From: a virus
DNA length: 32,842 bases
Direction: 5' to 3' (one strand)
Virus record (IMG/VR): IMGVR_UViG_3300019093_001030
Location: 1 to 32,842 of that record
The first letter of the stretch is position 1. Each line of letters opens with the position of its first letter. The notes under the pieces were generated by a model, which saw nothing but the letters and a program-made list of their open reading frames with translations, was not told the DNA's origin and made no database searches. Below, one piece after another: positions 6,240-27,841 of this stretch. Both the position numbers and the translations under genes were made by a program.

Positions 6240-6313
6240 GGCGGGCGCTCGCTGATTGGGTGGGTACGGCTGTATGTCCTAGCCTGTAGCGTGCCTGCCA
6301 ATCAGCGGCGGGG

Positions 6314-6331
6314 TCAGGGGGAGTTTGGCAC
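6314..6331 (-). repeat. 18-bp intergenic repeat, copy A (before the Asp-box gene)
   Basis: The minus strand reads GTGCCAAACTCCCCCTGA. It is identical to 21120-21137 and a close match to 18882-18899. This copy lies 74 bases upstream of the ATG at 6239, after the terminator-like hairpin of the preceding gene. Confidence 0.85.
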
Positions 6332-6354
6332 TTGGGGCCGATCCCATGGCGCCC

Positions 6355-6382
6355 AAAAGAGAAGGCCCGCTCAAGGCGGGCC
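6355..6382 (-). terminator. Terminator after the lipoprotein gene
   Basis: On the minus strand GGCCCGC pairs with GCGGGCC (arms 6376-6382 and 6364-6370) and is followed by TTCTCTTTT. It would stop or attenuate leftward transcripts before the Asp-box tail gene. Confidence 0.65.
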
Positions 6383-6406
6383 GGGTCGGATGAGTGAGGC
6401 GCTGGG

Positions 6407-6553
6407 CTAAATGCAAGACTTGGGGTTAGCCGCGCAGTTGGGCGGGTGTGCGCCTGGATCGGGCTGCTGGTCGGGGTCATCACTGCCGCCACCGCAGCCT
6501 GTGAGCTGGAGTGCAAGCAGGGCGAGCATCAAGAAGCGGATGATGGGTTTCAC
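6407..6553 (-). CDS. Small lipoprotein within the tail-fibre gene group, 48 aa
   Basis: From a GTG at 6551-6553 the protein begins KPIIRFLMLALLALQLTGC, a classic lipoprotein signal with lipobox LTGC. The mature part of about 29 residues is Gly/Asp/Pro-rich with two further cysteines. A GGAG stands eight bases before the GTG. The frame continues upstream to an ATG at 6631 through an Ala-Pro repeat, but that would bury the lipoprotein signal, so the shorter start is preferred. Phage lipoproteins made near receptor-binding genes can block the host receptor (for example T5 Llp). That role here is inference from location only. Confidence 0.65.
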   Translation of the reverse strand: MKPIIRFLMLALLALQLTGCGGGSDDPDQQPDPGAHPPNCAANPKSCI

Positions 6554-6572
6554 AGGCTGGGCTCCGTGGTGG

Positions 6573-6614
6573 GGTGCAGGTGCAGGTGCAGGTGCAGGTG
6601 CAGGTGCAGGTGCA
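6573..6614. repeat. Seven tandem copies of the hexamer GGTGCA
   Basis: Seven uninterrupted GGTGCA units lie between the stop of the 162-aa gene (6632) and the preferred lipoprotein start (6553). In the extended frame they encode (Ala-Pro)7. The six-base unit keeps reading frame whatever the copy number, so changes would alter spacing or linker length only. Confidence 0.95.
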
Positions 6615-6631
6615 GTGATGTTGGCGGGCAT

Positions 6632-7117
6632 CTAGCCGCTTGTCGAAGCACCGAGCGCCGCCAGCTGCTGACGCAGCACAGCCTTTTCGGCATTGATTTC
6701 TTGCAGCTTGGCGACCGCAGCGGCCGGGGGGGATTGGCCCAACGCCAGGGCTTGCGTGACTTCGCCAGCTGGCCGCACCAGCTTGGCATCTAGCTCGGCC
6801 AGCTGGGCGATGATCACTTCGGCAGCGGCGCGATTGATCGCAGCTTGTGTGGACGTGGCCACGTAGCGGCGCGAGGCAGCATCCCAGGCCCAGGTCTGCC
6901 ATTGCGAGTCAGCAGGCGCCGGGGGCTGGTAAGGCACGACGACGGGAACGGAGGCATTGCCGAAGTCATCGGGGCGCAGCTCGACGCGGTACCCATGGTG
7001 ATCAATGTCGCCCGTGATCCACGCATAGCCTGCCGGCGTGTTGCATGCAAGATCATCTTCATTGCTGATCTTCATGCCGGTGAGCTCACCGGTCGCCAAC
7101 AAGAATTGAGAGTGCAT
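6632..7117 (-). CDS. Tail fibre assembly-like or fibre-associated protein, 161 aa
   Basis: Soluble protein. The N-terminal part (MHSQFLLATGELTGMKISNE) and a middle WAWDAASRRYVATSTQAA segment resemble phage tail-fibre assembly and fibre-tip proteins, in which a W-x-W-D block is common. The C-terminus is a long amphipathic helix (AELDAKLVRPAGEVTQAL and later LQEINAEKAVLRQQLAAL) that may form a coiled coil. It lies directly downstream of the J-like gene and a small tail protein. The ATG at 7117 was chosen over an upstream in-frame ATG because the extension overlaps the neighbour and has poor composition. The family assignment is tentative. Confidence 0.65.
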   Translation of the reverse strand: MHSQFLLATGELTGMKISNEDDLACNTPAGYAWITGDIDHHGYRVELRPDDFGNASVPVVVPYQPPAPADSQWQTWAWDAASRRYVATSTQAAINRAAAEVIIAQLAELDAKLVRPAGEVTQALALGQSPPAAAVAKLQEINAEKAVLRQQLAALGASTSG

Positions 7118-7121
7118 ATCG

Positions 7122-7463
7122 TTAGGCCTTGATGAGAATGCAGGTGGCTTTTGCATCGGCGGCACTGACGCTTCCAATCCCGCCGACGCGGTGATACACG
7201 TCACTCATCTCCATAGTCCACGCAGCATTACCTCCGGGGTAGGCCAGCAAGATATGAGCACTCGGGCTGGCCGAGCTGATGTAGGTGAGGCCGATCTGAG
7301 CGCCACCCGCATCCAATACCCTGCACTTGACGAAAACTTGGCTCTCGCCGGTTTGCCCAGGGAAGCCCGCGTCAGTGGTGGTTGAGCTGGAAAAGGTGGC
7401 GCGAAAAACAACTTCGAGCGTGCCGGCGGACGGCTTTGCATAGGTTCCGGCGTACGTCGTCAT
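7122..7463 (-). CDS. Hypothetical tail-tip-associated protein, 113 aa
   Basis: A small, beta-strand-rich protein (GTLEVVFRATFSSSTTT, ESQVFVKCRVLDAGGAQIG) with no membrane segment. Its ATG overlaps the stop codon of the J-like gene (ATGA), so the two are coupled and expected in similar amounts. The position and predicted beta fold suggest a tail-tip or fibre accessory protein. I do not recognise a named family. Confidence 0.65.
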   Translation of the reverse strand: MTTYAGTYAKPSAGTLEVVFRATFSSSTTTDAGFPGQTGESQVFVKCRVLDAGGAQIGLTYISSASPSAHILLAYPGGNAAWTMEMSDVYHRVGGIGSVSAADAKATCILIKA

Positions 7464-10400
7464 GTGTAGTTACTCCAACTCCAGCCAGCGAAGGTGAATT
7501 CAGTCACCTCGGTGGCCGCCGCCGATGCCAACTCACCCGTGCCAACAGATCCCGGGCCCACGTAGGGCCGCCATGCTCCGCCGGCCCTCTGATAAGCCCG
7601 GCTGCTGGTAATCCAGATGGCCCCCTCGGGCGCGCCAGCAGGCTCGCCATCTTGGTAGTAAACGGGGTTACTGGTGGCGTCAAGAGCGCCGATATAGCCG
7701 AAGTCTGTCAGTGAGCGAGCACCGCTATTTGTCCCTGACACAGACAACGCTCCATTGGGGCCGATGCTGAAGGACAGTTCACACCACGCGTTTGGATCGT
7801 CATTGACCGCCCCTGCGTAAGCTTCGGCCCCATTGCCCTCTCCACATCCGGCAATCCCAACTAGAAGGTACGCTGAGCGGAACTTAAACTCAGAGCTGCC
7901 GAACACAGCCCGACTTGCACCGCACCGATACATAGCAGTTGGAAGACCACTGTCTAGCCGCCTATCTCGGGGCTCATCGACGGTGTAAATGACGATGATG
8001 TTTCCGCGCCGGTAGTCGCAGATGTAGTTCAAATCGCTCGCTAGATTGTAGGAATTGCGCCGGGTGCCATCTGGTGCTGCTGGGTAGCCAGGATCAGCAT
8101 TTCCATACACGTCATAGTTGTTCGTATATACAACCGCCCCATTGCGGTCCAACTCAATCAGGGTGTAGCTCCGCCGAGGACCGTTACCAGCAATGCTCCC
8201 GTCCTCCCTCCTCAAGCCGTTCCACCAGCCTGATGGAAGGTTCGAGGCACTAGCGCCACTAGCGCGAACAAGGAAGCTCTTCGGCCTGCCAGCCACATCA
8301 CTCCACTGCTGGTTGCTATTCAGCCATCCCGCATCTGGCACCACAGATGAGCCCGGCACATAGATCGCCGAAGTCACGCTCACCACAATCGCCACAGGCA
8401 GACCCGCATTGCCCGTGGTGTCCACATGGCGCGCCCAGACGATGTAGCTGCCCAGGTTCGGCCAGGCCCAGTTGTAGCCCGTGGCATCACCCTCGCCTGG
8501 CAGCGGCGTGCCAGCGGCCCAGCTGCTGCCAACGCGCAGCAGTGTGGTGGCGTAGTCAGCATCCGGGCAGGCGGTGTAGGGGATGCGCACGCGGCCAGGC
8601 TGCATGACTGGCGTGCCGAACACCACAGCCGCAGGCGGCTCGGTCTTGCCCAGCACGATGTGCGCGCGACTAACAGCGGGCGACCGGGCGCCGTTGGCAT
8701 TGACGACGACAGCGCTGACGATGATGACGGTGGCGTCAGCCACGCCGGCGAGATAGGCCTCGGTGTCATCGCCAGCTGCGTTGACGATGGTCCATGCCGA
8801 GCTGCCGACGGTGCGCCAAGACAGCTCGATGCGGCCGCCGTCCATGTAGGCAGCGGTGCTGCGCGGCCAGGTGGCTTTGACGCGGCTGATGATGGTGCCG
8901 TCGCCCAGCTTTTGCAGCTGCGCGGTGCCGCTGTCAAGCGTGAGGCCAGCCAGTTCGGGCACGATCCAGGGGTTGGGCAGATCGGTGTTGGGCGTGGGGT
9001 CTGCTACTGCGGCGTCGGCATCGTCGTAAGCGGCGGCGTCATCCTCTTGCAGGGTCAGGCCTACGGGCGCGCCCAGGCCAAAGCTCCAATCGGTGACGCG
9101 GAAGGTCTTGGCGGCGAAGCCATATTCGGCGCTGTTGATGCTGACCCGGTCGCCCGTTTGCAGCGGCCAGGCTTTGAGCTTGGCGGGGTAGTGGATCACC
9201 AGGCCATTGCGGGACTGTTCAACTTTGATGCGGCACAGATTCTTGGACCGGGCCTTGTCGTTGGTGAATGGCAGGTCGACATCAGTCCACAGTGCGCGGC
9301 CATCAGCGGCGACGAAGGTGGCGTTGGCATAAGGCTCAAAATCAGCGGCAACGCTGGTGCCGGCGGGCACGTACTGGCCGCGCACGCCGTTGAAGATCTC
9401 GCTGCTGGGCTCGCCGGCCTGGATGATGGTGATGGGGCCGGCCAGGTCGTCGTCGCCCAGGGACATGACGGGCGGCACCCAGGTGCCGGCCATGATGCGC
9501 CAGTTGCCGCCATAGCTGGCCCAGCCTGCCATGGACTCGCACAGGTCTTGCAGCACGGCCTCTTTGGCGCCATCGGAGCTGATGACGCCGTTGCAGGTGT
9601 AGCGCTTGCCGGTGACTGTGGTGGCGCCAGTGGTGAAGCTGGCAGTGGCATCGCAGGCGTTGGCGGCGGCGATGACGCTGGCGGCGTCCACATCGGCCAT
9701 GGCCACGCTGTAGCCGAAGGCGGAGCGCAGCCAATGGTCGGTGCACAGCGCGGAATTGTCTGACCAGGCGGTGGCGCCGCTGCGGCGGTCATAGACGAGC
9801 GCGCCGGAAATGTCGACAGTGATGCCGGGCGGGCCGCCTTGGAACTGGCTGCGCTCCAGATCGAGCGTGACGACGGAGTAGCACAGGCCGCGCAGGCGGT
9901 GGGCAGAGGTCCACTGCGAGGGGATCAGGCCGTTGAGCGTGGCGTCGACGGCCTGGTTTGGGTCGCCGAGGTGGTGCACGACGCGCACGGTGGAGCCGGC
10001 CGACACCACATTGCCCAGGCCTGCGGCAGCCGTGACGGCGCTGACTTGGTATTCAACACGCCAGGTGTAGTCGGACGAGGCTTCGACGGTGATGGCCGTG
10101 CCGTCTTCGTATTTGTCGTAGGTGGCGACGGTGTTGGGCAGGGTCAAGGTACTGCCGCTGAGCGACCAGCCATTGGCGCCGCCTTGCGGCAAGCCCCAGG
10201 ACGCGCCGCGGTCATTGCCGTCCAGCACCACGGCCAGCACGGCGGTGACGCCGGGCAGCGTGATTGAGCGCACCGCGCCGCTGGCATCGGCCTGCTGGAT
10301 CTGCGCTTGGTCGGGCGCGGCCCAGTCGGAGCCGGTGGCGCTGTTGCCGTCATCGAGCGCGCCGATGCTGACGCCGTCGATCTTGATGTCGTGAATGGCC

Positions 10401-10813
10401 TGGCATTGGTGCGAGGCCCAGACGATGACGAGGTGTTTGTAGGCGTCGCGCTTGACGCCGCCACCGGACAAGGCCTTGTCGGTGGTGAACATGGCCACCA
10501 CGGCACCGCCGGTTTCGCAGCGACCCAGAATCATGCGCTGGGGTGGCGCGGCATTGAGCACGGTGACTTGGCGGTCTTGCAGCCCGGCGTTGTAAGCAGC
10601 GCGCGCGGCGGCCTGGGCGCGGCGGGCTTTGTTGCGGGCAGTGATGCTGACGTAGGCGCCGGCACCAACAGTTAGCAGCGTCATCGTCGAGACGGCGAAG
10701 CCAAGGATATCGACGGAGGACATCAAGATGAAGCCCACCGTAACAGGGTCAGCCCAGGCCACGCCGGGCGCTAGTAGCCCGACGAGGACGATGCAAAGCA
10801 GGCGGCGCAGCAT
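7460..10813 (-). CDS. J-like central tail-tip (host specificity) protein, 1117 aa
   Basis: The largest gene in the window and the likely central fibre/hub protein that contacts the cell surface. Residues 1-21 look like a Sec signal peptide (AWA then DP), followed by a hydrophobic Gly-rich segment (about 28-60) and a basic helix. Residues 80-105 (APPQRMILGRCETGGAVV) match the conserved N-terminal block of J/GTA-type tail proteins. Fibronectin-like segments follow at about 620-830, and the C-terminal third is probably the variable receptor-binding part. The start is ATG at 10811-10813, overlapping the upstream stop as TGATG; a GTG one codon earlier is possible. It sits last in the tail-tip order, as J does in lambda. 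Confidence 0.88.
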   Translation of the reverse strand: MLRRLLCIVLVGLLAPGVAWADPVTVGFILMSSVDILGFAVSTMTLLTVGAGAYVSITARNKARRAQAAARAAYNAGLQDRQVTVLNAAPPQRMILGRCETGGAVVAMFTTDKALSGGGVKRDAYKHLVIVWASHQCQAIHDIKIDGVSIGALDDGNSATGSDWAAPDQAQIQQADASGAVRSITLPGVTAVLAVVLDGNDRGASWGLPQGGANGWSLSGSTLTLPNTVATYDKYEDGTAITVEASSDYTWRVEYQVSAVTAAAGLGNVVSAGSTVRVVHHLGDPNQAVDATLNGLIPSQWTSAHRLRGLCYSVVTLDLERSQFQGGPPGITVDISGALVYDRRSGATAWSDNSALCTDHWLRSAFGYSVAMADVDAASVIAAANACDATASFTTGATTVTGKRYTCNGVISSDGAKEAVLQDLCESMAGWASYGGNWRIMAGTWVPPVMSLGDDDLAGPITIIQAGEPSSEIFNGVRGQYVPAGTSVAADFEPYANATFVAADGRALWTDVDLPFTNDKARSKNLCRIKVEQSRNGLVIHYPAKLKAWPLQTGDRVSINSAEYGFAAKTFRVTDWSFGLGAPVGLTLQEDDAAAYDDADAAVADPTPNTDLPNPWIVPELAGLTLDSGTAQLQKLGDGTIISRVKATWPRSTAAYMDGGRIELSWRTVGSSAWTIVNAAGDDTEAYLAGVADATVIIVSAVVVNANGARSPAVSRAHIVLGKTEPPAAVVFGTPVMQPGRVRIPYTACPDADYATTLLRVGSSWAAGTPLPGEGDATGYNWAWPNLGSYIVWARHVDTTGNAGLPVAIVVSVTSAIYVPGSSVVPDAGWLNSNQQWSDVAGRPKSFLVRASGASASNLPSGWWNGLRREDGSIAGNGPRRSYTLIELDRNGAVVYTNNYDVYGNADPGYPAAPDGTRRNSYNLASDLNYICDYRRGNIIVIYTVDEPRDRRLDSGLPTAMYRCGASRAVFGSSEFKFRSAYLLVGIAGCGEGNGAEAYAGAVNDDPNAWCELSFSIGPNGALSVSGTNSGARSLTDFGYIGALDATSNPVYYQDGEPAGAPEGAIWITSSRAYQRAGGAWRPYVGPGSVGTGELASAAATEVTEFTFAGWSWSNYT

Positions 10814-11229
10814 CACGTGCCCACCCGCCAGGCGTGCAGCGCGCTGGACATGGGCAGCATGTGCACCGCGCCCGCCTCATCACGCACGGCGGCCACTTCG
10901 CCGCAGCACAGGCCTAGGGCCTGGGCGAGCGGGTCAGCCTCAGACAAGGGCAGCAGAACCACATCGCCCAGCTGGGCGAAGGCGGGCGCGATGGGCTCGC
11001 GGGCCAGCTGCTTGGTGACCACGGCGCACAGGCCGCCGGCGTTTTGCAACAGGCGCCGGGTGCTGGTGAGGCTGCTGCCCAGGGGCAGGCTGGCGAGCGG
11101 GTCGGCACCCTCCACAGCTGCCACATAGCCCCCCGCGAAATGGCCGCAGTTGGCGCTGGCCCAATCAAAGGCAGGCAGCGGTGCAGCCAGGTGGGCGGTG
11201 AGCAGTTTGGATTTGTCGTTAGGGCTCAT
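10813..11229 (-). CDS. Tail-tip NlpC/P60-like assembly protein (DUF6950-like), 138 aa
   Basis: Residues 20-37 (FDWASANCGHFAGGYVAA) carry the W-x5-C-GHF pattern of phage NlpC/P60-related tail-assembly proteins, in which the Cys and a later His form a papain-like pair. A candidate His lies near the C-terminus (VHMLP). The protein is probably the small cysteine-peptidase-like component between the hub and the J protein, corresponding to lambda K or GTA gp14. Enzymatic activity is not certain because the second half is divergent. It is coupled to the J-like gene by a TGATG overlap. Confidence 0.72.
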   Translation of the reverse strand: MSPNDKSKLLTAHLAAPLPAFDWASANCGHFAGGYVAAVEGADPLASLPLGSSLTSTRRLLQNAGGLCAVVTKQLAREPIAPAFAQLGDVVLLPLSEADPLAQALGLCCGEVAAVRDEAGAVHMLPMSSALHAWRVGT

Positions 11230-11236
11230 GATGCGA

Positions 11237-11839
11237 TCACTGCTCTTGGAATTTCTTGGAGAGCCAGGTGCTGGGCTGCTCGATCAGCTTGCGCACGTAC
11301 TCCAGGCCTTTGTCGCCGGGGTAGACGCTGCGCTGCTGCTCATCGGTGAGGCGCAGGCCGTCGGCATTGCGGGCACGGCTCAGGCCGGCGCGGCTGACGG
11401 GCAGCTCGATGCGGCCCGCGACGGAGCCGCCTTCGATGCCGGGGGATTGGCGGTTGACCTTGACCGGCTCCATCTCACCCGCGAAGCGCTGGCGGGCCGG
11501 GCCGACGGGTAGGAATTGCTCGTCCAGCAGCAGCAAGAGCACGCGGGCCTGGCGGCCCCGGTAGGCCTCGACGGCGCCCATGGTGGCGGCGAGCATGCCC
11601 TGGTCGACCACATCGAGGCTGAGCGTGACGACTTGCGTATCGGTGTCTTGGCTTTCTTGCAGATCGCTCACCGCAGCATGGTTGCCCAGCGGGATGTAGG
11701 TGAAGCTGCCGACCGTCAGCGGCACATTGAAGGTGGAAAAGCGGTGGGTTTGGCCGACAAAGTCCAGCTCAATGAGCCAGACGACGCCGGCCACCGGGCC
11801 GCTGATTTGGGCGAGTTCTTGTGCAGACAGGGCGAGCAT
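11237..11839 (-). CDS. Tail-tip hub-type protein, 200 aa
   Basis: Soluble, beta-rich protein. Characteristic pieces are VVWLIELDFVGQTHRFST, SLDVVDQGMLAATMGAVE and a C-terminal YPGDKGLEYVRKLIEQP. The place between the 208-aa distal-tail-like gene and the NlpC-like gene corresponds to lambda L or GTA gp13 (DUF2163), so a role in the tail-tip hub is inferred. The cysteine-rich C-terminus of the DUF2163 family is not seen. The open frame runs upstream across the neighbouring gene; the ATG at 11837-11839, directly after that gene's stop, was chosen. Confidence 0.72.
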   Translation of the reverse strand: MLALSAQELAQISGPVAGVVWLIELDFVGQTHRFSTFNVPLTVGSFTYIPLGNHAAVSDLQESQDTDTQVVTLSLDVVDQGMLAATMGAVEAYRGRQARVLLLLLDEQFLPVGPARQRFAGEMEPVKVNRQSPGIEGGSVAGRIELPVSRAGLSRARNADGLRLTDEQQRSVYPGDKGLEYVRKLIEQPSTWLSKKFQEQ

Positions 11840-11841
11840 GA

Positions 11842-12468
11842 CTACCAGGCCTCCACCAGATCTATGGACAGGCCGGTGCTCACGCCTGGGCAGTGCGCCG
11901 CCCAGGCCGTGCGGCCGGAGGCGCGCCGGAAGTAACCACGAGCACGCTGCCATGCGACAGCGGTACCAGCAGCAAAGCCCTGGCGCAAGGGCGCCTCGAA
12001 GTTCACGGTGATGTTGCCGGCGCCATCGGCCACGGCAGGCGCGGTGACCAGCACAAGCTGGCTGCTGCCCTGGCCTGCGCCGATCTGCAGCCAGTCACCC
12101 GGCACCAGGGTGGCGCCAGCCTGCCCTGCCCCGGCGGCCAGCACCATGCTGACCGCGCCATAGGCCACCGAATTGGCCAGCACCGGCGCGCCACGCAGGG
12201 TGCCCAGCGGCGCGGGGCGGGCGGGGTCATACGCGGCCAGGACGTTGACGCTGCCACGCAGGGAGAGCAGCAAGGCCTTCCAGGCGCCTGCATCAGCATC
12301 CCCCAGATAGGCAGGGCTGACCAGGCCCATGACCCAATGCGGCATGCCGTAGGGCCGCGCCTGGCTGGAGCCGGTGACCTCGGAGCCGGTCAAGACATCG
12401 AAGGTGGCTTGCTCGATGCGGCAGCCGACGCCGCAGCGCAAGGTGTCGGGCATTTGGATGATGGCCAT
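11842..12468 (-). CDS. Distal-tail/minor tail protein, 208 aa
   Basis: The first gene after the tape measure. It contains AYDPARPAPLGTLRG (about 79-93), GDWLQIGAGQGSSQLVLV (122-139) and ITVNFEAPLRQGFAAGTAV, a block arrangement I associate with minor tail proteins found after the tape measure in many siphophages. It is probably the adaptor that joins the tail tube to the tip. The start overlaps the tape measure stop as TGATG, so the two are coupled. The function is inferred from position and fold-like pattern. Confidence 0.72.
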   Translation of the reverse strand: MAIIQMPDTLRCGVGCRIEQATFDVLTGSEVTGSSQARPYGMPHWVMGLVSPAYLGDADAGAWKALLLSLRGSVNVLAAYDPARPAPLGTLRGAPVLANSVAYGAVSMVLAAGAGQAGATLVPGDWLQIGAGQGSSQLVLVTAPAVADGAGNITVNFEAPLRQGFAAGTAVAWQRARGYFRRASGRTAWAAHCPGVSTGLSIDLVEAW

Positions 12469-14483
12469 CAGAGCACCCCTTTGGCTTTGAGCATGGCCAC
12501 CAGCTCGCGCTGGCCCTGGCGCACGGCGGATTGGGTTTCTTGCAGGGCTTGGGCGCGGTCGACCCGGCTGTCGATCTGGATGACGGGGGCGTAGGTGATG
12601 GCCATGCCGCCGCCGCTGCCCTGCTGCAGGATTTGCGCGGTTTGGCTGGCGTTGTAGATGCGGGCCGCGCCAGTGGCTTCCAGCTCAGGGCCGTGCTCGC
12701 CGACGATGCGCAGGCCGCCGGCATGGCTGCCGCCAGCAGCAAAGCCCGGGATGCCGATCAAGCCCAGCAAGCTGCCGACGCCACCGCCGAGCGAGCCGCC
12801 TTTGAACCAATCACCGAACAGCTCTTTGCCGATCTGCGCGGCGGCGGCCTGCGCAGCCATTTCGAGCAGCAGATTGGCCCAGAGGTCGCCGATGTTGTCG
12901 AAGTCACCCTTCAGGGTGCTTTTGATGGTGCTGCCCAGGGAGTCCTGCACATTGCGACCGAACTGTTTGAACATTTCGTCCATCTCGTCCAGCTCGGTCT
13001 TGGCATCGTCTTTGATACCGGCGATGCCTTTGACGATGTTCTCCAGCTCTTGGGGGGTGTATTCCACGCCCGCGGCGAGTTGGGCTTCGAGGCGGGTGGT
13101 TTCGGCGATCTTGCGGGCTTCGTCGAGGCGGCCGGAGTATTTGTAGATGGCATCGTCAAGGTCTTTGGTGGCCTTGGCTTCGGCCTCGACGTTCTTGGCG
13201 ATGTCTTTGCGGATGGCTTCGTCTTGCTTGAGCAGGAGCAGCTTGCGCTCCAGGCCCAGCACCAGCTCGCGCACCTCGGGCACTTCACCGGAGGCGCCGA
13301 GGCTTTTGAGCAGATCGAGGGCCTTTTGGCGCTCGGTCAAGTCCGCGGTCTTGTCGATCTGCTCTTGCAGGGTGTGGACGTAAAGGGCTAAGGCATGCTG
13401 GGCGTTGCTGATTTTTTCAGCGCGGGCGGTCATGTCCTCGGGCTTGATCTTCCCCTTAATGCTCGGCTTCTCGTCAGGCGGCAGGCGACCTTCATTGGAG
13501 TAGCTTGCGTTAGGCAGGCTCAGCAACTGCACACGCTTGTAGTACATCAATAGCTTCTCTTGCTCAGCTATTGCCGCGCGCGTCGACTCCTGAAGCCGCT
13601 TATTACGTTCAGAGTTGAAGAGGAAGCCACGATTGGAGGCCTCGTCTTGCAAGGCTTTGAGCTCCTCATTGAGCTTGGCAATATCCTCACCCCGACTGGC
13701 CAGGCTCCGGAAAGGATTGCTCGTGCCCATCTTCAAAAGGGCCGTACTGAAGTCGCCAAAGACTTCAGTTCCGATACGCATCTCGGCAAACAGGGTGTTA
13801 ACCGACGGCAGCAAGGTGTTGACTACGGCCCGCGCCACATCCATGCTGTTTTTCTCGAGCTGAGCAAGCTGCTTGTTAAACTTTTCAGCCTCTTCCGCTT
13901 GCTGAGTGGTTACGGTAGCCACCAGCTTGCCTTGGCTGGCCAGGTCTACCAAAAGGGGCGCAACCTCGCGCAGGGACTTACCGAAGAGCTCTTGCGTCAG
14001 CCGCGCCTTGTTGCCGTCATCAGCAAAGCCACTGAGGGCGACGGCAACAAGGCGCAGGGCTTCGGCGGGGTCTTCGCGCTTCAAGGCCTCGGCGCTGAGG
14101 CCGATGGATTCGAGGGCCAGGGCAGCGTCAGAGCCGGGCTTGGCGCTATTGAGCGCCTGGTTGAGTTTGATCAGGCTGGTGGTGACGGTGTCGAGCTTGG
14201 TACCGGTGCGCAGGGCAACGTCTTCAAGCGCACTGATGTTCTCGATGGAGGCCCCGGTGGCGTCTTTGATGTCGTTCAGGGCATCAATGCCACTGGCGGT
14301 GCTTTTGACGAAGGCGGTGAAGCTCAGGCCCGCAAAGGCGGAGCCGAGCACGCTGCCCAGCATGCCGAAGCCTTGATTCAATTCCAAGGCCTTGCCTTGC
14401 ACCTGGCCGAGACTGGCCTTGACGCCGGCCAGCACGGCTTTGCTGCGGTCCTCAGCGCTGACGATGATTTTGGCTTCAGACAT
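12468..14483 (-). CDS. Tail tape measure protein, 671 aa
   Basis: A long, mostly helical protein that sets tail length and is ejected during DNA entry. An N-terminal coil is followed by hydrophobic segments (for example GMLGSVLGSAFAGLSFTAF near residue 40) and long coiled-coil-prone stretches. The C-terminus is Gly-rich and ends in FAAGGSHAGGLRIVGEHGP then ELEATG, the typical tape-measure ending. At 671 aa it is shorter than lambda H (853 aa), so a shorter tail of roughly 100 nm is expected by the usual length rule (inference). It follows the frameshifted chaperone, as is standard. Its ATG lies just inside the end of the frameshifted frame. Confidence 0.92.
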   Translation of the reverse strand: MSEAKIIVSAEDRSKAVLAGVKASLGQVQGKALELNQGFGMLGSVLGSAFAGLSFTAFVKSTASGIDALNDIKDATGASIENISALEDVALRTGTKLDTVTTSLIKLNQALNSAKPGSDAALALESIGLSAEALKREDPAEALRLVAVALSGFADDGNKARLTQELFGKSLREVAPLLVDLASQGKLVATVTTQQAEEAEKFNKQLAQLEKNSMDVARAVVNTLLPSVNTLFAEMRIGTEVFGDFSTALLKMGTSNPFRSLASRGEDIAKLNEELKALQDEASNRGFLFNSERNKRLQESTRAAIAEQEKLLMYYKRVQLLSLPNASYSNEGRLPPDEKPSIKGKIKPEDMTARAEKISNAQHALALYVHTLQEQIDKTADLTERQKALDLLKSLGASGEVPEVRELVLGLERKLLLLKQDEAIRKDIAKNVEAEAKATKDLDDAIYKYSGRLDEARKIAETTRLEAQLAAGVEYTPQELENIVKGIAGIKDDAKTELDEMDEMFKQFGRNVQDSLGSTIKSTLKGDFDNIGDLWANLLLEMAAQAAAAQIGKELFGDWFKGGSLGGGVGSLLGLIGIPGFAAGGSHAGGLRIVGEHGPELEATGAARIYNASQTAQILQQGSGGGMAITYAPVIQIDSRVDRAQALQETQSAVRQGQRELVAMLKAKGVL

Positions 14484-15110
14484 TTGCTTTGATGACTCTC
14501 ATCAGGTCGGTCAACAGGTGCCAATCGGTCACGGGGTGAAGGGCGGCGTAGAGGGGCAGGCTTTGCGGCTGCCAGCCCCCACACCAAGCCCAGGCATGCA
14601 TGGCCTGCTCAGACCAGGGGCACAGCGCAGGCGGCGGACCGAGCAAGTCGCCAAAGCCCGCCTCTTGGAGCTTGTGCGCATCGGCCTTGGACTTTTCCCA
14701 GCCGATGCGCGCGATCAGTTTTTTTCAGCGGCCTCCTCGACCTGGCGGGCTTGGCGCATGCGCTCAAGCAGGGCCGTGGCCCAGGCCTGCGCCCAATCGG
14801 GCTGGGCGTCAAGCAGCAGGGGCACGGCGCCGGGCTCCAGGGGCATGGCATCGTCATTGGGGTGATCGGGCAGAACATCACGCACCTGCACGCCGGCCCA
14901 GGCAACCACAGCTTGCTCGAGCAAGGCGCGCTCGAGCAGCAGCATGCCGGCGGTGTCGGCCCCGGCCTGGCAGCGGCGCAGGGCGAGCTGCACTTCGTGA
15001 CGGGTGGGCACGCGCAGGGTGACGCTGACGCGGGCGCCCTGCCCTGGCAGCGGCTCGGGGCTGAACTCGCGGGCGGCCAGGGCCAGGCGCTGGATGGTTT
15101 GCAGATCCAT
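14476..15110 (-). CDS. Tail assembly chaperone G-T fusion made by -1 frameshift
   Basis: The zero frame encodes a 131-aa gpG-like chaperone ending at the TGA 14715-14717. Just before that stop the codons are GAA AAA AAC, which contain the canonical slippery heptamer A AAA AAC (14718-14724). After a -1 slip the frame continues CTG ATC GCG and stays open for 80 more codons to a TGA at 14476-14478, which overlaps the tape measure start. The product would be 211 aa. The second domain (PPPALCPWSEQAMHAW and a CGGW) looks protein-like. In lambda the G and GT products wrap the tape measure while the tube assembles. Frameshift use is inferred from sequence and location. Confidence 0.85.
14715..15110 (-). 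CDS. Tail assembly chaperone G-like protein, 131 aa (unshifted product)
   Basis: Starts MDLQTIQRLALAAREFSP and ends EEAAEKN. It is a mostly helical, acidic protein of a size and position (between the tail tube and tape measure genes) typical of gpG-type tail chaperones. It should be the major product, with the G-T fusion made from a minority of ribosomes at the slippery site before its stop. It lies just downstream of the tail tube gene in the late operon. Confidence 0.85.
   Translation of the reverse strand: MDLQTIQRLALAAREFSPEPLPGQGARVSVTLRVPTRHEVQLALRRCQAGADTAGMLLLERALLEQAVVAWAGVQVRDVLPDHPNDDAMPLEPGAVPLLLDAQPDWAQAWATALLERMRQARQVEEAAEKN
14718..14724 (-). promoter_or_regulatory. Programmed -1 frameshift slippery site A AAA AAC
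   Basis: On the minus strand seven A then C span 14725-14718. The heptamer 14724-14718 is in the correct zero-frame phase (xxA AAA AAC), and the zero-frame stop follows directly as TGA. A stop right after the slip site raises frameshift efficiency in many systems. I did not identify a definite downstream stimulatory hairpin. Confidence 0.85.
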
Positions 15111-15118
15111 GGCCGCGA

Positions 15119-15769
15119 TCAGGTGGCGTAACGGGTGTTGTTGGAGACGGCGCTGAAGCCGATCTTGCTGGTCAGCGGCGCATTCGAGCCAACCGTGGGC
15201 GTGGTTTGCAGCGACCAGTAGCCGTTGCCCACCAGCTTCGAGCTGTTGGGGAAGCTCATGCGCAGGGCGACAGCCACGGCGGTGTCGGAGGCGTTGCGCA
15301 CGGTGTTGTACCAGGCGAGCGCGGGGTCGTCGAAGACGGTGAAGTCGAGTTGAATGGGCGAACGGGTGGTGGGGATTTGCTTCTTGGTGCGGTCGACGAT
15401 GGTGGTGATGTCGGCAAAGTCGAGGTCGCCACCGGAAGTGTCCACGCCTTGGATCTGGGTGATATTGGTCCAGGCGGTGATGCGGCGGATCGTGCCTGTA
15501 CCGGTACCGGCGGGGTAGTTGGAGGTGCTGGTGGTATCGATGACCTCAAAGGTAATGTCATTGGTCGACACCGTCTTGACGCGCACGATGCGACCGGTGA
15601 GCAAGTCCCAGCCGGAGGTGACTTCGAGGTAGTCGCCCGCCACGCAACCATGGCCGGCGGCCAAGGTGGCCACCGCCTCGGCGGCGTTGGTGAGCGCCGT
15701 CATGTTCACGGCGTTGCCGTAGGCGCTGGCGATGGCAACTTGGGTGCCGGTGGAGAGGGTGATGGCCAT
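15119..15769 (-). CDS. Major tail tube protein, 216 aa
   Basis: Forms the stacked rings of the long tail. It is Thr/Gly/Ala-rich and beta-strand-rich, opening MAITLSTGTQVAIASAYGNA. The region WTNITQIQGVDTSGGDLDFA (100-119) followed by TKKQIPTTRSPIQLDFTVF is the typical layout of lambda V/HK97-type tube proteins (an I-G-D type loop, then a block stating how the subunit is averaged). Size and position between the terminator protein and chaperone genes fit. The start was chosen at the ATG directly after the upstream gene's spacer. Confidence 0.85.
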   Translation of the reverse strand: MAITLSTGTQVAIASAYGNAVNMTALTNAAEAVATLAAGHGCVAGDYLEVTSGWDLLTGRIVRVKTVSTNDITFEVIDTTSTSNYPAGTGTGTIRRITAWTNITQIQGVDTSGGDLDFADITTIVDRTKKQIPTTRSPIQLDFTVFDDPALAWYNTVRNASDTAVAVALRMSFPNSSKLVGNGYWSLQTTPTVGSNAPLTSKIGFSAVSNNTRYAT

Positions 15770-15786
15770 GGCGGGGTGTCCTTGGG

Positions 15787-16206
15787 TTACAGGATGGTTT
15801 CGGGTTGCGAGGCGCGCACGAAGTAGGTGGCGCGAGCGGTGAGGCTGATGACACCGAGGGCGGCTTCGCCCTCGGCGGCAAGGAAGCGGTCAATGGCGGT
15901 GAGCTGCAGGTCGTAGGGCACGGGCGCGGCAAATACCAGGGGCAGCGCGGTGGCGGCCAGGGCGTGCAGGACGTCATCCAGATCGTCCACAGCGCGCACG
16001 TAGCCGCGCAGTTGCACGGTGAGGGTGTGCTGGGCAATGTCGTCACCCAGGGCTTGGCGCTCGACGTCTTCTTGCTCGGCGGTGATTCGCCAGGCGGGCA
16101 AGGCGGTTTCAGCCAGGGGCCACAGGCGGCTGGTGTAGGCCGGGCGCCCGGTGGCGGCCACGCGGGCGGCGATGGCGTCAATGACTTGGGCGGCGGCGAG
16201 GGCCAT
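15787..16206 (-). CDS. Tail terminator / minor tail protein U-like, 139 aa
   Basis: Begins MALAAAQVIDAIAARVAATG and has ALPAWRITAEQEDVERQAL, then TLTVQLRGYVRAVDDLDDVL. This helix-then-strand pattern, with a conserved 'total minus individual response' layout, matches lambda U-type terminators that cap the growing tail and join it to the head. It lies between the head-tail joining gene and the tail tube gene. The assignment rests on pattern and gene order. Confidence 0.78.
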   Translation of the reverse strand: MALAAAQVIDAIAARVAATGRPAYTSRLWPLAETALPAWRITAEQEDVERQALGDDIAQHTLTVQLRGYVRAVDDLDDVLHALAATALPLVFAAPVPYDLQLTAIDRFLAAEGEAALGVISLTARATYFVRASQPETIL

Positions 16207-16209
16207 GAC

Positions 16210-16491
16210 TCAGACCCTCACCAGCACCAGGCGCAGCAAGGCGCCGTCGGGCGGCTCGGCCAGCACTTGGCGGACCTTGTAGCTTTGGCCGGCGCGCAGC
16301 AGGGGCTGACCCTCGGCGGCGGCGGGCGCGTCTTTGCTGGCCATCAAGAAGGTGGGGGCCACGGTGATGGCCTCGCCTTGCTCGACGACGGTGGACGCCT
16401 CAAAGATGCCGCTCACCGGCTGGCCAGCGAGCTGCACGCCCTCCCCCAGGCCGAGGGAGGCGTCGAAGTAGAGGGCTGCGTCTTCGAGCAT
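16210..16491 (-). CDS. Head-tail joining protein, FII-like, 93 aa
   Basis: A short beta-rich protein: MLEDAALYFDASLGLGEGVQ, later EASTVVEQGEAITVAPTFL and SYKVRQVLAEPPDGALLRL. Size, gene order (after the capsid region, before the tail terminator) and the final Y-x-V-R-x-V-x-PDG-x4-L-x-L stretch fit the lambda FII/Gifsy-2 stopper family that binds the neck and accepts the tail. It ends 4 bases before the next start, so it is in the same operon. Confidence 0.75.
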   Translation of the reverse strand: MLEDAALYFDASLGLGEGVQLAGQPVSGIFEASTVVEQGEAITVAPTFLMASKDAPAAAEGQPLLRAGQSYKVRQVLAEPPDGALLRLVLVRV

Positions 16492-16503
16492 GGTGGTGCG
16501 CGA

Positions 16504-16905
16504 TCAGGCGGCCGGGGTGTCGCTGGCGTTGGCGTCAGCGCTGGCGTCATGAGCAGCGCCATCCACGGGCGCGGCTTCGTCAGCCGTGCTTTCAGTCGCC
16601 AAGAGCGGGGCCTGGGCCTGCGCTTGTGGCACCTCGTCGGCAGGCCTTGGCTTGGCGCGGCGGCGCACTTCGGGCGTGGGCTCGACGGGCTTTTGCAGGG
16701 CCGGATCGGGCGCGGCGGGGGCGTCAGCCTGGTCCTGCGTCAGATCGGCCTCGGTGGCGCGGCGCACTTTGTTGGCGGCAGCCAGCTCGGCGCCGAGGAC
16801 GGTGCCGAGGTCGACCAGGCTGCCGGGTTCAATGCGCTCGCCGCCGATGGCGATGGCGCGCAGCACGATGTAGGGGATGAGTTTGCTTTGACTGGCGGGG
16901 GCCAT
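16504..16905 (-). CDS. Putative head accessory/decoration protein with disordered tail, 133 aa
   Basis: Residues 1-55 form a compact region (LIPYIVLRAIAIGGERIEPG, then SLVDLGTVLGAELAAANKV). The remainder is Ala/Pro/Glu/Asp-rich and probably disordered (PDPALQKPVEPTPEV). Its place right after the capsid gene is where lambda carries FI and other phages carry decoration or packaging accessory proteins. The N-terminal pattern of a short K-x-Y segment, a G-containing turn and a LG-x-x-L-x5-A helix vaguely resembles the first 45 residues of the Asp-box tail protein. The ATG at 16905 has a GGAG ten bases upstream. Its function is not established. Confidence 0.65.
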   Translation of the reverse strand: MAPASQSKLIPYIVLRAIAIGGERIEPGSLVDLGTVLGAELAAANKVRRATEADLTQDQADAPAAPDPALQKPVEPTPEVRRRAKPRPADEVPQAQAQAPLLATESTADEAAPVDGAAHDASADANASDTPAA

Positions 16906-16979
16906 GGCAGGATGCTCCGGTGCTACCCCAGCCGCCTGCCGTACAGGCCGCTGAGGTAGTGGTTTACTTGCGCTGACGA

Positions 16980-18848
16980 TCAGGTAATGGAGGTGGCGCG
17001 GCTGAAGGCGGCGGCCTGGCGGATGCCGACGTCCACCGTTTGGATGGCGCGGATGCCGCTGATGGCTGCAGCGAAGTTGGCGTAGGGGTTGAGCGCCAAC
17101 TCCAAGAAGCCCCATTCGCCGATCACCACTTGGGAGAAGTCGCCGAAGATTATGCTGGCGGCGGTGAGCTGGGTGGTGGTGGTGGCACCGAAGCCGTCGA
17201 CCTCACCGTCGAGCACATTGCCTTGCCAGATGGGGGTGTCGGTGGAGGCGAAGCGCTGGCGTTGCTTGAGCAGGCCGGCCACGCTGGGGGTGGTGAGGTA
17301 TTTGCAGCCGGCCGTCAGGGCGTTGCCGCTGGCGACGTCAGTCTGGAATTCCACAATGCCGGGCAGGCCCAGTGTGGTGCCGACCACCGAGCCGATGCCG
17401 GCGGTGTTGGCGATGCCGGTGGGCTGGCCACTGGCGCCAGAGCCTTCCAGGCCAGCGAGGTCAATGCCCAGGGCCAAGACTTTGGAGAGATCGTCCATGA
17501 CCAGCGCGTCGGCTGCAGGCGTGGACTGCAGCAGCAGTTGGCGGCTCAGTTCGGTGTAAGCGGCGATGTTCTTGGGCGCCAGGGCCAGCTGGCCGATGGT
17601 CTGCTGGGATTCCGTGGCGGCGGTGGCTTCATTGGCCAGCCAGTAGGCGGTGGCGGCACCCGTTTGCTTGGGGATGGCAACGGCACCGACCAGGCCAGGC
17701 AGCATGGTGGCGCCGAGTTGGCCCAGCACGCTGCGGGCGCGCAGCAGTTCGATGAAGCTGGAGGCGCGCAGATCGGTGGAGACCAAGTTGCCGCCGGCGG
17801 TGGGGGTGCCGACGGTCAGGTCGCGGTGCTGCACATCGGTGGGCACGAAGAAGCCGCCGTTGGGCGAGCTGTCGATACCGGCACGCTGGCAGATGGCTTT
17901 GTGGACTTCGGCTTCGATGCCGGCGCCCTTCCAGTCGCGGTCGACCATGGCGCGGATGGCGCGCAGCACCGAGTAGCGCTTGACGTCGCTGCGGCTCATG
18001 CCCAGGCTGGTGACGGGGGCGGTTTGCGCGGCGGCCATGGCGTTCATGACCAGGCTGCGCACGGCGTCGACGGTGGCGCCGGATTCGATGGCTTCCGCCG
18101 CGATTTTGCGGGCGCCGAATTTTTCAAACTGCTCGCCGAGGGCGTTGATTTCACGCACGCGGGTGGTTTCTTGGGCGCGGGCGGCGGCGGCTTCTTCGCT
18201 GATGTTCAGTGCGGGCATGGCTCGGTTCTCCGATGGGTTTGGGGTTGCAGGGACTGCAGGGGCTTCAGGGGCAAGCGCAGCAGGCGCTGCGGGTTCGGGG
18301 GTGGCGTCTTCGATGGGCTCGGCGGGAGCCTGGGATTCCTCGACCTCAATGACGAAGGGGAGATCGCCTTCCGCTTCACGGAAGAAGCCCGCGCCTGCGT
18401 CAGCGGGCTCGGCAACCATGGCGACATGAAATGGCATCCAGCGCGTGGTGAGTAGCACGCCGCTTTGCTGGACCTTCCCTTTGATCCGACGGTAGCCAAC
18501 GCTAACGCTGCGAATGACGCCATTCAGCACATCGAGTTCGTACCCTTTGGCCTCCTGACGCTCACCAAATCGCGCAAAGCCACGCAGACGGTGGCCGTCT
18601 GAATAAAGGTCTTCAACGACACCCACATTGACCTGTCCATCACGATGAGTGGCCACGATGGGCAGAGGGGCGCGGACTAGATCGATGGCCGAGGGGCTGT
18701 GATCAAGAATCTCGATGCCGTCACACATCTCGACCGGCGCATCTGTCGAGATGACGACAGGGATGCGCCCGTCAGCCAAGGCCCGCCCCTCCATCTCGAA
18801 CGAGATGGAGCGCGTCTGGATGGCCGTGCGGTTTGACAAGGTGGGCAT
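16980..18848 (-). CDS. Prohead protease fused to HK97-type major capsid protein, 622 aa
   Basis: One open frame encodes two proteins that are usually separate. Residues 1-155 are an HK97-type (U35) prohead protease: a DHSPSAIDLVRAPLPIVATH stretch with catalytic His68, and GVIRSVSVGY with Ser116 (or Ser114) as nucleophile. An Ala/Pro/Glu linker of about 50 residues follows. From residue 211 a helical delta/scaffold-like region precedes the capsid core (FFVPTDVQHRDLTVGT, later TGAATAYWLANEATAA and GIRAIQTVDVGIRQAAAF). Such fusions are known in some phages. An in-frame ATG at 18216-18218 has its own GGAG, which would let ribosomes make capsid protein alone. One copy of the 18-bp intergenic repeat lies 33 bases upstream. 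Confidence 0.9.
   Translation of the reverse strand: MPTLSNRTAIQTRSISFEMEGRALADGRIPVVISTDAPVEMCDGIEILDHSPSAIDLVRAPLPIVATHRDGQVNVGVVEDLYSDGHRLRGFARFGERQEAKGYELDVLNGVIRSVSVGYRRIKGKVQQSGVLLTTRWMPFHVAMVAEPADAGAGFFREAEGDLPFVIEVEESQAPAEPIEDATPEPAAPAALAPEAPAVPATPNPSENRAMPALNISEEAAAARAQETTRVREINALGEQFEKFGARKIAAEAIESGATVDAVRSLVMNAMAAAQTAPVTSLGMSRSDVKRYSVLRAIRAMVDRDWKGAGIEAEVHKAICQRAGIDSSPNGGFFVPTDVQHRDLTVGTPTAGGNLVSTDLRASSFIELLRARSVLGQLGATMLPGLVGAVAIPKQTGAATAYWLANEATAATESQQTIGQLALAPKNIAAYTELSRQLLLQSTPAADALVMDDLSKVLALGIDLAGLEGSGASGQPTGIANTAGIGSVVGTTLGLPGIVEFQTDVASGNALTAGCKYLTTPSVAGLLKQRQRFASTDTPIWQGNVLDGEVDGFGATTTTQLTAASIIFGDFSQVVIGEWGFLELALNPYANFAAAISGIRAIQTVDVGIRQAAAFSRATSIT
18216..18231 (-). promoter_or_regulatory. 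Internal ribosome binding site and start within the protease/capsid gene
   Basis: GGAG (18228-18231 on the minus strand) stands nine bases before an in-frame ATG (18216-18218, codon 211), exactly at the border between the linker and the capsid delta region. Initiation here would yield a 412-aa capsid precursor without protease. Confidence 0.55.
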
Positions 18849-18881
18849 GGGTTGTATGGTCTGGGTTTGAGGGTTTTGTTT

Positions 18882-18899
18882 TCAGGGGGAAAGTGGCAC
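18882..18899 (-). repeat. 18-bp intergenic repeat, copy B (before protease/capsid gene)
   Basis: The minus strand reads GTGCCACTTTCCCCCTGA, 15 of 18 identical to copies A and C. The 11 bases that follow also match copy C in 9 positions. It begins 11 bases after the portal stop and ends 33 bases before the protease start. Confidence 0.8.
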
Positions 18900-18908
18900 G
18901 GTGCGGGA

Positions 18909-20525
18909 CTAGGCCGCGCTGGCCGGCGGCGCGGGGTCTGCACCACCACCCGCCGCGGCGCCGGGTTTGTTGAGGCGCAGCCAGTCGATGGGCACGCCCA
19001 TGCGGGTAGCCAGCTCGCGGGCGGCTTTGATTTGGGTGAGGACGTCTTCCAAGTTGCGGCCCATGCCGGCAGCGACGTCCTGGGGGCTTTTGAGGCCGGC
19101 TTCGATGGCTTCACGGTCGGCCTGGATGTCGCGCAGGGGGTCGACCCATTCCCAGCGGCGAGCCTGGAAGGCGTGGCCGCTGAACTTTTCCAGCTTGCTC
19201 AGCGGCAGGGCTTTGCCGCTGGGCAGGGTGATGAGGCCGAAGGCCAGGGCGTTGCGCAGCCACTTGGCGTAGAGCGGCTCCAAGAAGGCGTCGACAAACC
19301 ATTCCTGCACGACCATCCAGCCGTCGCGCTCATCAAGGGTGCCGCTGCGTATGCTGGAGAAGCTGACACCCTCCAAGTCATTGGCCAGGGCGTGGTAGCT
19401 GACGCCGAGGCCGCTGGCAATGCCGCGGAGGTTGGCTTTGACGAAGTCGCCAAACATGGCGCTCGGGTAGTCGGGGTCGAAGGGGGTAAAGGTGGTGCCG
19501 GCGGGCAAGGTGTCGAAGGTGCCGGGGGCGACTTCGGTGAGGCCTTGGCCTGCGGCGTCGAAGCCGTCGGCCATGGCGTCGGGCAGCACTTCAGACTGGC
19601 CCTCACCAGGCGTGAAGAAGCCCATCTTGCTGGCGCCGATGCGGCTGGCGATGACGGCAGCCTCTTCGTAGCCGCCAAGGTTGTTGAGGCGCAGCATGCT
19701 GGCGTGCATCCAGGGCAGGCCGCGCACTTGCTCAGGCAGATCGGCGATGAAGCCGTGGATGATTTCTTCAGCGGGGATGCGCTGGGAGGGTGCGGGGTTG
19801 CGGGCGAGGTGGTAGGTGTCGCCGTTCATGTGGGCGCGCAGGTGGTAGGCGACGGGGCGCATGTATTTGTCGACTTCGACGCCCATCAGGATGGCGTTGA
19901 CGCCCTCGGTGCCGCTGCGGTTGAGCTGGGTGTCGATGCGGTTGACATCGAGCACTTGGATGGCGAGGCCGAAGGGGTTGCGGGCTTCGCTGCCGAGGAT
20001 GATGCGGCCGAGGAATTCGCCGTCGCGCTCGGCGCTTTTAATCAACAGATGGCAGATGTCGCGCAGGCTGAGCTTGCCGGTGATTTCACAGACGCCGCGC
20101 GCGGCCCACTTGCGGTAGGCGGCCTCGATGGCGTCGTTGGCGACTTTGTCGGGGGTGCCAGCGTCGTCATAGACGCGGGCTTCCAGGGCGAAGCCGTGGG
20201 GGCCGACGACGTTGGTGGCGACGAGGCCCTGGAAGCGGCGGGCGTAGTCGTTGTCGCGGTGCAGCTGGCGGCTGCGGGCGCGCAGAGCGTCGAGATTGCC
20301 TTGCAGGGAGGCGTTGGCGCTGAGGCTGAGTGTGGTCCAGCCTTCGGTCAGGCGGTTGAGTTGGGCGGCGGCGTAGTTGCGGCGCTGCGCCCCGCCCTGC
20401 CCTGCATGCAGCGGGATGACCTGGGCGCTGTGGCTGGCCTGAGGCAAGACGCCAGCGCGGCTGGCGGCTTGGAGGTAGCCGCCGGGGCGGCCTTGCAGGA
20501 ATTGCTTGAGGACGCGGCTGCTCAT
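18909..20525 (-). CDS. Portal protein, lambda gpB family, 538 aa
   Basis: Forms the dodecameric ring at the capsid vertex through which DNA is packaged and the tail attaches. The length matches lambda B (533 aa). The conserved pieces are visible: LDALRARSRQLHRDNDYAR near residue 80, VVGPHGFALEARV, LIKSAERDGEFLGRIIL (about 160-177), and the C-terminal DWLRLNKPG-containing region. The lambda family is processed at its N-terminus by the capsid protease; whether that occurs here is unknown. The start overlaps the previous gene's stop as ATGA. The C-terminal GAAAGGGADPAPPAS is low complexity. Confidence 0.93.
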   Translation of the reverse strand: MSSRVLKQFLQGRPGGYLQAASRAGVLPQASHSAQVIPLHAGQGGAQRRNYAAAQLNRLTEGWTTLSLSANASLQGNLDALRARSRQLHRDNDYARRFQGLVATNVVGPHGFALEARVYDDAGTPDKVANDAIEAAYRKWAARGVCEITGKLSLRDICHLLIKSAERDGEFLGRIILGSEARNPFGLAIQVLDVNRIDTQLNRSGTEGVNAILMGVEVDKYMRPVAYHLRAHMNGDTYHLARNPAPSQRIPAEEIIHGFIADLPEQVRGLPWMHASMLRLNNLGGYEEAAVIASRIGASKMGFFTPGEGQSEVLPDAMADGFDAAGQGLTEVAPGTFDTLPAGTTFTPFDPDYPSAMFGDFVKANLRGIASGLGVSYHALANDLEGVSFSSIRSGTLDERDGWMVVQEWFVDAFLEPLYAKWLRNALAFGLITLPSGKALPLSKLEKFSGHAFQARRWEWVDPLRDIQADREAIEAGLKSPQDVAAGMGRNLEDVLTQIKAARELATRMGVPIDWLRLNKPGAAAGGGADPAPPASAA

Positions 20526-21088
20526 CGGGTGAACCTGACCAGAAGTTTGTTGCGGGGGGCGAGGCCTTTGGCCAGGCGGGCGGCAGCGTCTTCACGCGCG
20601 ACTTCGGCGGCCAGACGGCTGCGGAAGGCCATGAAGTCGGCGGGGGTGTGGAAGCGCTGGCGGCGGCCAGACACTTCGACTTCGGCCATATAGGCTTTGG
20701 CGCCGTAGGCCTCGAGCGCGGCGTTGCAGGCGTCGAGGGCTTTCTTGGCCGGGCTGCGGGTGTCTGCCGTGGGGGCGGCGGCGAGGTTGGGCAGGACGCG
20801 GGCGGCGCCGCTGCCGACGGTGTAGCGCTCAGCGGCTTTGGTGACGGTGGCGACCCAGGTGTAGTCGCCCGGCGCATAGGCGGCCGAGGTGGCGGCGGGC
20901 ACGCTGACGGCGAAGCAGGCGCCGGAGGCGGCGGCGGTGATGTCGAATTTGCCAGCCGCGTTGATGAAGCGGTAGGCCAGCACCCAGCCTGCGGTGGCGG
21001 GGTAGTCGGCGGCGAGGTCGTCGCGGCGCCAGTTGAGGGTGTCGCCCGCGATGAGGGTGGCGGGCTCGGTGGTGGGGATGGAGGCCAT
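20522..21088 (-). CDS. Head protein between terminase and portal, 188 aa (gpW-position)
   Basis: Located where lambda carries the small gpW joining protein but three times as long. Residues 1-105 look like a beta-rich (Ig-like) domain with repeated strands (GWVLAYRFINAAGKFDITA, GDYTWVATVTKAAERYTVG). The C-terminal 75 residues are helical and basic (KKALDACNAALEAYGAKAY, RRQRFHTPADFMAFRSRLA). The second part could be the gpW-like connector and the first an added domain; this is inference. It is coupled to the portal by ATGA. Copy C of the intergenic repeat lies 31 bases upstream of the ATG. Confidence 0.7.
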   Translation of the reverse strand: MASIPTTEPATLIAGDTLNWRRDDLAADYPATAGWVLAYRFINAAGKFDITAAASGACFAVSVPAATSAAYAPGDYTWVATVTKAAERYTVGSGAARVLPNLAAAPTADTRSPAKKALDACNAALEAYGAKAYMAEVEVSGRRQRFHTPADFMAFRSRLAAEVAREDAAARLAKGLAPRNKLLVRFTR

Positions 21089-21119
21089 GCGGCAGAGTGC
21101 CGCGCGGCGGGGTTTGTGT

Positions 21120-21137
21120 TCAGGGGGAGTTTGGCAC
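21120..21137 (-). repeat. 18-bp intergenic repeat, copy C (before the head protein)
   Basis: The minus strand reads GTGCCAAACTCCCCCTGA, identical to copy A. It lies 20 bases after the stop of the Mor-like gene and 31 bases before the next ATG. Confidence 0.9.
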
Positions 21138-27759: not shown

Positions 27760-27767
27760 GGTCCCGA

Positions 27768-27787: not shown

Positions 27788-27841
27788 ACACTAGATTTCC
27801 CAGCATTTGCAGCATGCGAAACACATGAAAAACTTGCAGGC

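Follow-up and report, generated by a model that had tools for sequence, protein, structure and literature searches.

Proteins of the Mor/C family are known activators of promoters that carry a -10 element without a proper -35 (PMC4390567, PMC4287176). The Mor protein of phage Mu binds as a dimer to two 5-bp inverted repeats within a 16-bp element at -51 to -36, where it takes over the -35 contact and brings in sigma70 RNA polymerase (PMC4390567, PMC4287176); the arms of this site are separated by a 6-bp G/C-rich spacer, and the site is centred at -43.5. Mu C acts at the promoters Plys, PI, PP and Pmom, of which PI serves head gene I (PMC4461284). The gene for C directly precedes lys in the Mu genome. 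Short conserved repeats upstream of several genes are also present in the mycobacteriophages of cluster K, whose start-associated sequences include a ribosome-binding site adjacent to the start codon.

Here we describe a comparable arrangement in a viral DNA of 32,842 nucleotides (the window; IMG/VR record IMGVR_UViG_3300019093_001030, positions 1 to 32,842), where an 18-bp motif recurs upstream of three late genes. We read this motif, with a probability of roughly 0.88, as the activator-binding part of three late promoters (P1, P2 and P3) under the control of a Mor/C-type protein encoded beside the first copy, that of P1. The predicted system resembles that of Mu C in having a small phage helix-turn-helix activator, an activator gene directly before a target promoter, late promoters dispersed over several sites, with separate ones for lysis and head, weak or non-consensus promoter elements (PMC4461284, PMC4287176), and, in most of the relatives, an inverted repeat; the site of Mu C is itself a dyad related to Mor's (PMC4461284, PMC4287176). 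As at Mu Pm with Mor, there is a -10 without a usable -35 and a site just upstream of and overlapping the -35 region (PMC4390567, PMC4287176), and the window element, at -50 to -33, sits about where the Mor site does (-51 to -36).

The differences are equally clear. The window encodes a lambda-type head and packaging set (TerL, portal and head protein) and belongs to a non-Mu phage, its activator is much shorter than Mu C (89 versus 140 aa), and its head genes are apparently leaderless, unlike those of the Mu C system. The sites of its relatives form a larger dyad than those of Mu C, with a conserved asymmetric core that is not shared by Mu's own promoters, and the window clade retains the left arm alone; unlike those of the Mor site, the arms lie about two helical turns apart and are centred near -37. 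The element also differs from the cluster K repeats in having a -10 box and no Shine-Dalgarno sequence.

Three copies of the motif in the late operon

The preliminary description of this DNA reported three copies of the motif on one strand and between genes, and our scan confirmed this. GTGCCAAACTCCCCCTGA occurs without mismatch at 6331-6314 and 21137-21120, and the third copy, GTGCCACTTTCCCCCTGA, lies at 18899-18882 with 3 mismatches (15/18); all are on the minus strand and between ORFs. When both strands were scanned with up to 3 mismatches, these were all the matches in the window, against a chance expectation of 0.08 from dinucleotide shuffles, and 0 of 100 shuffles gave three. The distances from the motif end to the ATG at the two head copies (31 and 33 nt) and the identity of 9 of the next 11 bases downstream of them were also as first described.

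Gene order, assigned with PHROGs, is terS, terL, a small ORF, motif, head-tail joining, portal, motif and major head protein, followed by tail genes including the tape measure and a fibre J-type protein, a terminator-like hairpin, motif, a 511-aa ORF, holin and spanin. The relevant features, in this order, are:

21439 to 23604, minus strand: terminase large subunit gene, preceding the activator gene (PHROGs)
21158 to 21427, minus strand: predicted Mor/C-type activator gene, 89 aa, between terL and P1, with a WGG...YIRK strand and a C-terminal helix-turn-helix
21120 to 21137, minus strand: motif copy 3 (exact), where the activator is proposed to bind at promoter P1 (head-tail joining and portal)
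21094 to 21099, minus strand: -10-like hexamer CACTCT of P1, 20 nt after the motif, with the ATG at 21088 following after 5 nt
20522 to 21088, minus strand: head-tail joining gene, first of P1 (phrog_5774)
18909 to 20525, minus strand: portal gene (phrog_21)
18882 to 18899, minus strand: motif copy 2 (15/18), where the activator is proposed to bind at promoter P2 (major head protein)
18856 to 18861, minus strand: -10-like hexamer GACCAT of P2, 20 nt after the motif, with the ATG at 18848 following after 7 nt
16980 to 18848, minus strand: major head protein gene, first of P2 (phrog_617)
6364 to 6382, minus strand: terminator-like hairpin GGCCCGCCTTGAGCGGGCC with a T-rich tail, directly upstream of P3 (pattern match only)
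6314 to 6331, minus strand: motif copy 1 (exact), where the activator is proposed to bind at promoter P3 (ORF 6239-4704 and lysis region)
6288 to 6293, minus strand: -10-like hexamer CACGCT of P3, 20 nt after the motif
4704 to 6239, minus strand: 511-aa ORF with no assigned function, first of P3 (PHROGs)
3237 to 3647, minus strand: holin gene, downstream of P3 among the lysis genes (phrog_785, 1.1e-15)
2393 to 2806, minus strand: Rz-like spanin gene in the lysis region (phrog_1152, 4.5e-05)

Motif copy 3 starts 20 nt past the stop codon of the activator ORF. The N-terminal part of the major head protein also matches head maturation protease families, and terminator-like hairpins were not in excess when the window was scanned for such sites. 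Outside the late genes, a bacterial small SRP RNA is recognised at 124-220 on the plus strand (Rfam, 59.5 bits), which places the left edge in a host chromosome, so that the window consists of a prophage and host flank. To the right of the late genes is a lysogeny control region, with genes for CII-like (CP76) and YdaS-like regulators at 26068-26541 and 27508-27921 (both minus strand).

A predicted bipartite promoter at homologous junctions

Starting from the head and head-tail joining proteins, profile searches collected about 200 loci, 39 of them from cellular genomes. The relatives include prophages of Variovorax (L118, L120 and L134) and of Undibacterium (L105). Exact-pattern scans of IMG/VR gave mostly chance matches, and only those at homologous junctions were kept. 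The motif is present at such junctions in IMG/VR contigs whose flanking proteins are just 50-69% identical: before the head-tail joining gene in L001, at the portal/head junction in L006, L013 and L035, and, in L018 and L014, after the tail-fibre region and before the lysis genes, the position held by P3. Loss of the motif from the same junctions of related phages, or scattered placement in coding regions, had been named beforehand as grounds for refutation, and the comparison with relatives did not refute the motif.

The element in these relatives consists of a core (TTCCCCCTGA or TTTGCCTTAA), exactly 20 nt, a -10 hexamer of the form xAnnnT, usually 5-8 nt, and the ATG. More distant relatives have, at the same junctions, a core of TTTGCCTTAA or TTCGCCTTAA in place of TTCCCCCTGA, usually within an inverted repeat. 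The hexamer stands exactly 20 nt after the motif in almost every motif-bearing relative at these junctions, and all three window hexamers have A at position 2 and T at position 6. For a quantitative comparison we used 51 non-redundant elements, less than 70% identical to each other. Core and arms were the main basis of their choice, two elements being added by hand, so that selection was for the most part independent of the hexamer. At offset 20, 65% of these elements combine A at position 2 with T at position 6; the figure is 18% at offset 19 and 0-8% at the other offsets from 8 to 32, and position 6 is T in 78%. A2 and T6 at a fixed offset are the signature of a sigma70 -10 element.

If the hexamer is set at -12 to -7, the 18-bp motif covers -50 to -33. 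There is no proper -35: on average the best candidate agrees at 3.5 of 6 bases, in most cases at a spacing of 18 bp, so that the predicted promoters have the recognisable -10 and poor or absent -35 that characterise Mor/C-dependent promoters. The preliminary view that the sequence does not fit sigma70 was incomplete: it had missed the -10-like hexamer exactly 20 nt downstream of each copy. Scanning with a consensus sigma70 model did not detect promoters of the P1, P2 and P3 type. A general model of core plus -10 yields several likely chance matches per genome, which makes genome-wide copy counts unreliable without the phage-specific arms.

The motif was also seen before structural genes in two fragments whose flanking genes have no match to window proteins, L017 (8369-8352, minus strand) and L004 (3424-3407, minus strand). 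In L017 the head gene belongs to phrog_1328 and the hexamer CAAAGT lies exactly 20 nt downstream of the motif; a Mor-like gene was not found in either fragment. In the phages phiHAP-1, VP882, PPpW-3, ep3 and Mica the genes at the corresponding junctions mostly abut or overlap, and no such activator is present; phiHAP-1 has a 103-nt gap before its head gene.

A probable divergent Mor/C-type protein encoded beside P1

The small ORF between terL and P1 was at first taken for a gpW-type head protein, a reading given up when a PF08765 (Mor) match at the same place in relatives showed it to be Mor-like. In many relatives the ORF at this place has an [FWY]GG..YI signature followed by a helix-turn-helix, and the combination of a GG-x-x-YI strand motif with a C-terminal helix-turn-helix is found in two alignments, one of them with Mu C and Mor. 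PF08765 matches 10 of the 19 aligned relatives (best 8.8e-12), and several of the prophage genomes carry a match to it that falls within the fetched phage loci; the window protein by itself gives no PF08765 match. In hhalign, the window-type group (A4) is linked to the Mor-type group (A5) at 98% and E=1.5e-13, and the joint profile of both types reaches Mu Mor, a dimeric helix-turn-helix activator (1rr7, E=0.001), and, weakly, Mu C (9l0x E=0.07, 9vw8 E=0.095). The window-type profile alone did not find Mu Mor significantly. An AlphaFold model of the window protein has C-terminal helices, and a Foldseek search with this monomer returned nothing significant, 1RR7 ranking fifth with E=3.5. Membership in the Mor/C family rests on intermediates, since neither the window protein nor the window-type profile makes the match alone; through them, ORF 21427-21158 is predicted to encode a divergent Mor/C-type activator. 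A tblastn search with three members of the family against 50,697 deposited phage records found no relative.

The gene and the element tend to occur together. The activator family is present in about 19 of 26 element-positive genomes and in at most 1 of 29 element-negative ones (Fisher p ~1e-7), counting genomes or fragments long enough to judge, with totals that depend on the fragments admitted. Two of the 19, L098 and L204, have weak elements, and p is 1.6e-7 without them; in L123 the activator matches are weak and on contigs not matched to the phage. Where the activator gene has a different place in the operon, as in L137, L141 and L135, an element again stands a few nt after the stop codon of this gene. 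In L135 and L141 the ATG of the gene that follows would overlap the -10 box, so either this start is misplaced or these copies work differently.

It is quite unlikely, to our minds, that the same promoters are read by another protein, a different phage regulator or a host protein, while the Mor-like neighbour regulates something else. Such a reader could be sought among the further regulators of the window (CII-like CP76, YdaS-like and XRE-type), and no activator gene can be recognised in some element-positive fragments (L153, L139, L145, L017, L112 and L117), the unrelated L017 among them having both motif and -10 box. Against this stand the co-occurrence of gene and element, their adjacency even where the gene has moved within the operon, and the known action of Mor/C proteins at promoters with a -10 and no proper -35 (PMC4390567, PMC4287176). 

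Under Mor/C-type control, the reading that we favour, the 89-aa protein (21427-21158) would bind the motif at -50 to -33, stand in for the proper -35 element and recruit host sigma70 RNA polymerase, and the -10 hexamer exactly 20 nt beyond the motif would complete each late promoter. P1, P2 and P3, serving head-tail joining and portal, the major head protein and the lysis region, respectively, would then work in the manner of the Mu promoters Pm, Plys and PI. A binding site for a transcription factor was among the possibilities raised in the preliminary description, and it is this one that the bipartite promoter, the phage-specific arms and the linked activator gene, which had been overlooked, now support.

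The element as a probable DNA site

The core lies inside an inverted repeat in most relatives, forming a dyad of about 28 bp centred near -37; in the window clade only the left arm is kept, and the right arm is missing from the window copies. Between two promoters of one phage the arms agree at 82% (left) and 85% (right) of positions (17 independent phages), against 34% between phages, and 0 of 20,000 permutations reach the observed within-phage value. For the spacer downstream of the arms, agreement within phages (37%) barely exceeds that between phages (29%). Where paired arm positions are mismatched, the combinations are 6 G-U, 7 A-C and 19 others of 256, so that wobble pairs are not preferred. 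Arms that are phage-specific yet common to the promoters of one phage, with no G-U excess, indicate a DNA site rather than an RNA hairpin, and the element is thus best described as a putative DNA site for a phage-specific protein, not as a hairpin or a recombination boundary.

The element might alternatively be an RNA hairpin with a conserved loop (GCCTTA or CCCCC) and a covarying stem, acting as a processing or translation-control site in a long late transcript. Some relatives do have perfect inverted repeats with short loops, such as AGTGAAATTTT-CGCCTTA-AAAATTTCACT in L105, and in several elements a further small inverted repeat adjoins the ATG. An RNA structure, however, would not need identical arms at two loci of one phage and leaves the rigid 20-nt distance to the -10-like hexamer unexplained; the link to a Mor-type DNA-binding protein also speaks against it. 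With the lack of wobble preference, the missing right arm in the window and the absence of any Rfam match at the window copies or at the elements of nine relatives, RNA processing or cleavage, which had been suggested earlier, appears very unlikely. The other early suggestion, a conserved recombination boundary, fits the position of the motif at module borders (activator/head-tail, portal/head and tail/lysis) and is hardly credible, because a boundary should be common to phages, whereas the arms vary among them and agree at two loci of one phage, and because it accounts for neither the -10 box, its spacing nor the start-codon distance.

Two further features of the repeats may be mentioned. The head elements of L105, L213 and L151 have near-perfect arms of 9-11 bp round the core, exceeding the usual half-site, and a second small inverted repeat surrounds the -10 box or ATG in L216, L220 and window copy 3.

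Probably leaderless head messages

The first in-frame ATG or GTG lies 5-8 nt past the hexamer in 33 of the 40 elements with T at position 6. With a start codon at this distance from the -10, transcription should begin at it or within two bases. A Shine-Dalgarno-like stretch precedes the start in 1 of these 40 elements, versus 50 of 82 head genes of element-negative relatives, and none is present before the major head protein ATG (18848) at P2. To judge from these predicted start sites, the head mRNAs are probably leaderless, and in the window transcription of the head-tail joining and major head protein genes would start at their ATG or a few bases from it. P3 is unlike the head promoters, as its predicted start precedes the ORF at 6239 by about 40 nt, and transcription would run from there into this ORF (6239-4704) and the lysis region.

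A possible wider class of late promoters

We lean towards the view that these elements belong to late promoters of an undescribed class, widespread in lambda-type head operons. Each phage would have its own Mor/C-like activator and arm specificity, all would have an invariant asymmetric core and leaderless capsid messages, and the window clade would have lost half of the dyad. With one half lost, the activator would bind asymmetrically. If this is correct, Mor/C-type control reaches past Mu-like phages to lambda-type head genes, through several dispersed promoters and with switching specificity, and the elements form a natural collection of co-evolved activator/operator pairs, dozens of them matched, from which it could be learned how a small helix-turn-helix protein and its operator co-evolve. 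It would also predict that major capsid messages, which are among the most abundant in the infected cell, are leaderless in these phages. Two related prophages contain, in addition, a C4 antisense RNA recognised by Rfam (L100, 931-1014; L104, 996-1084).
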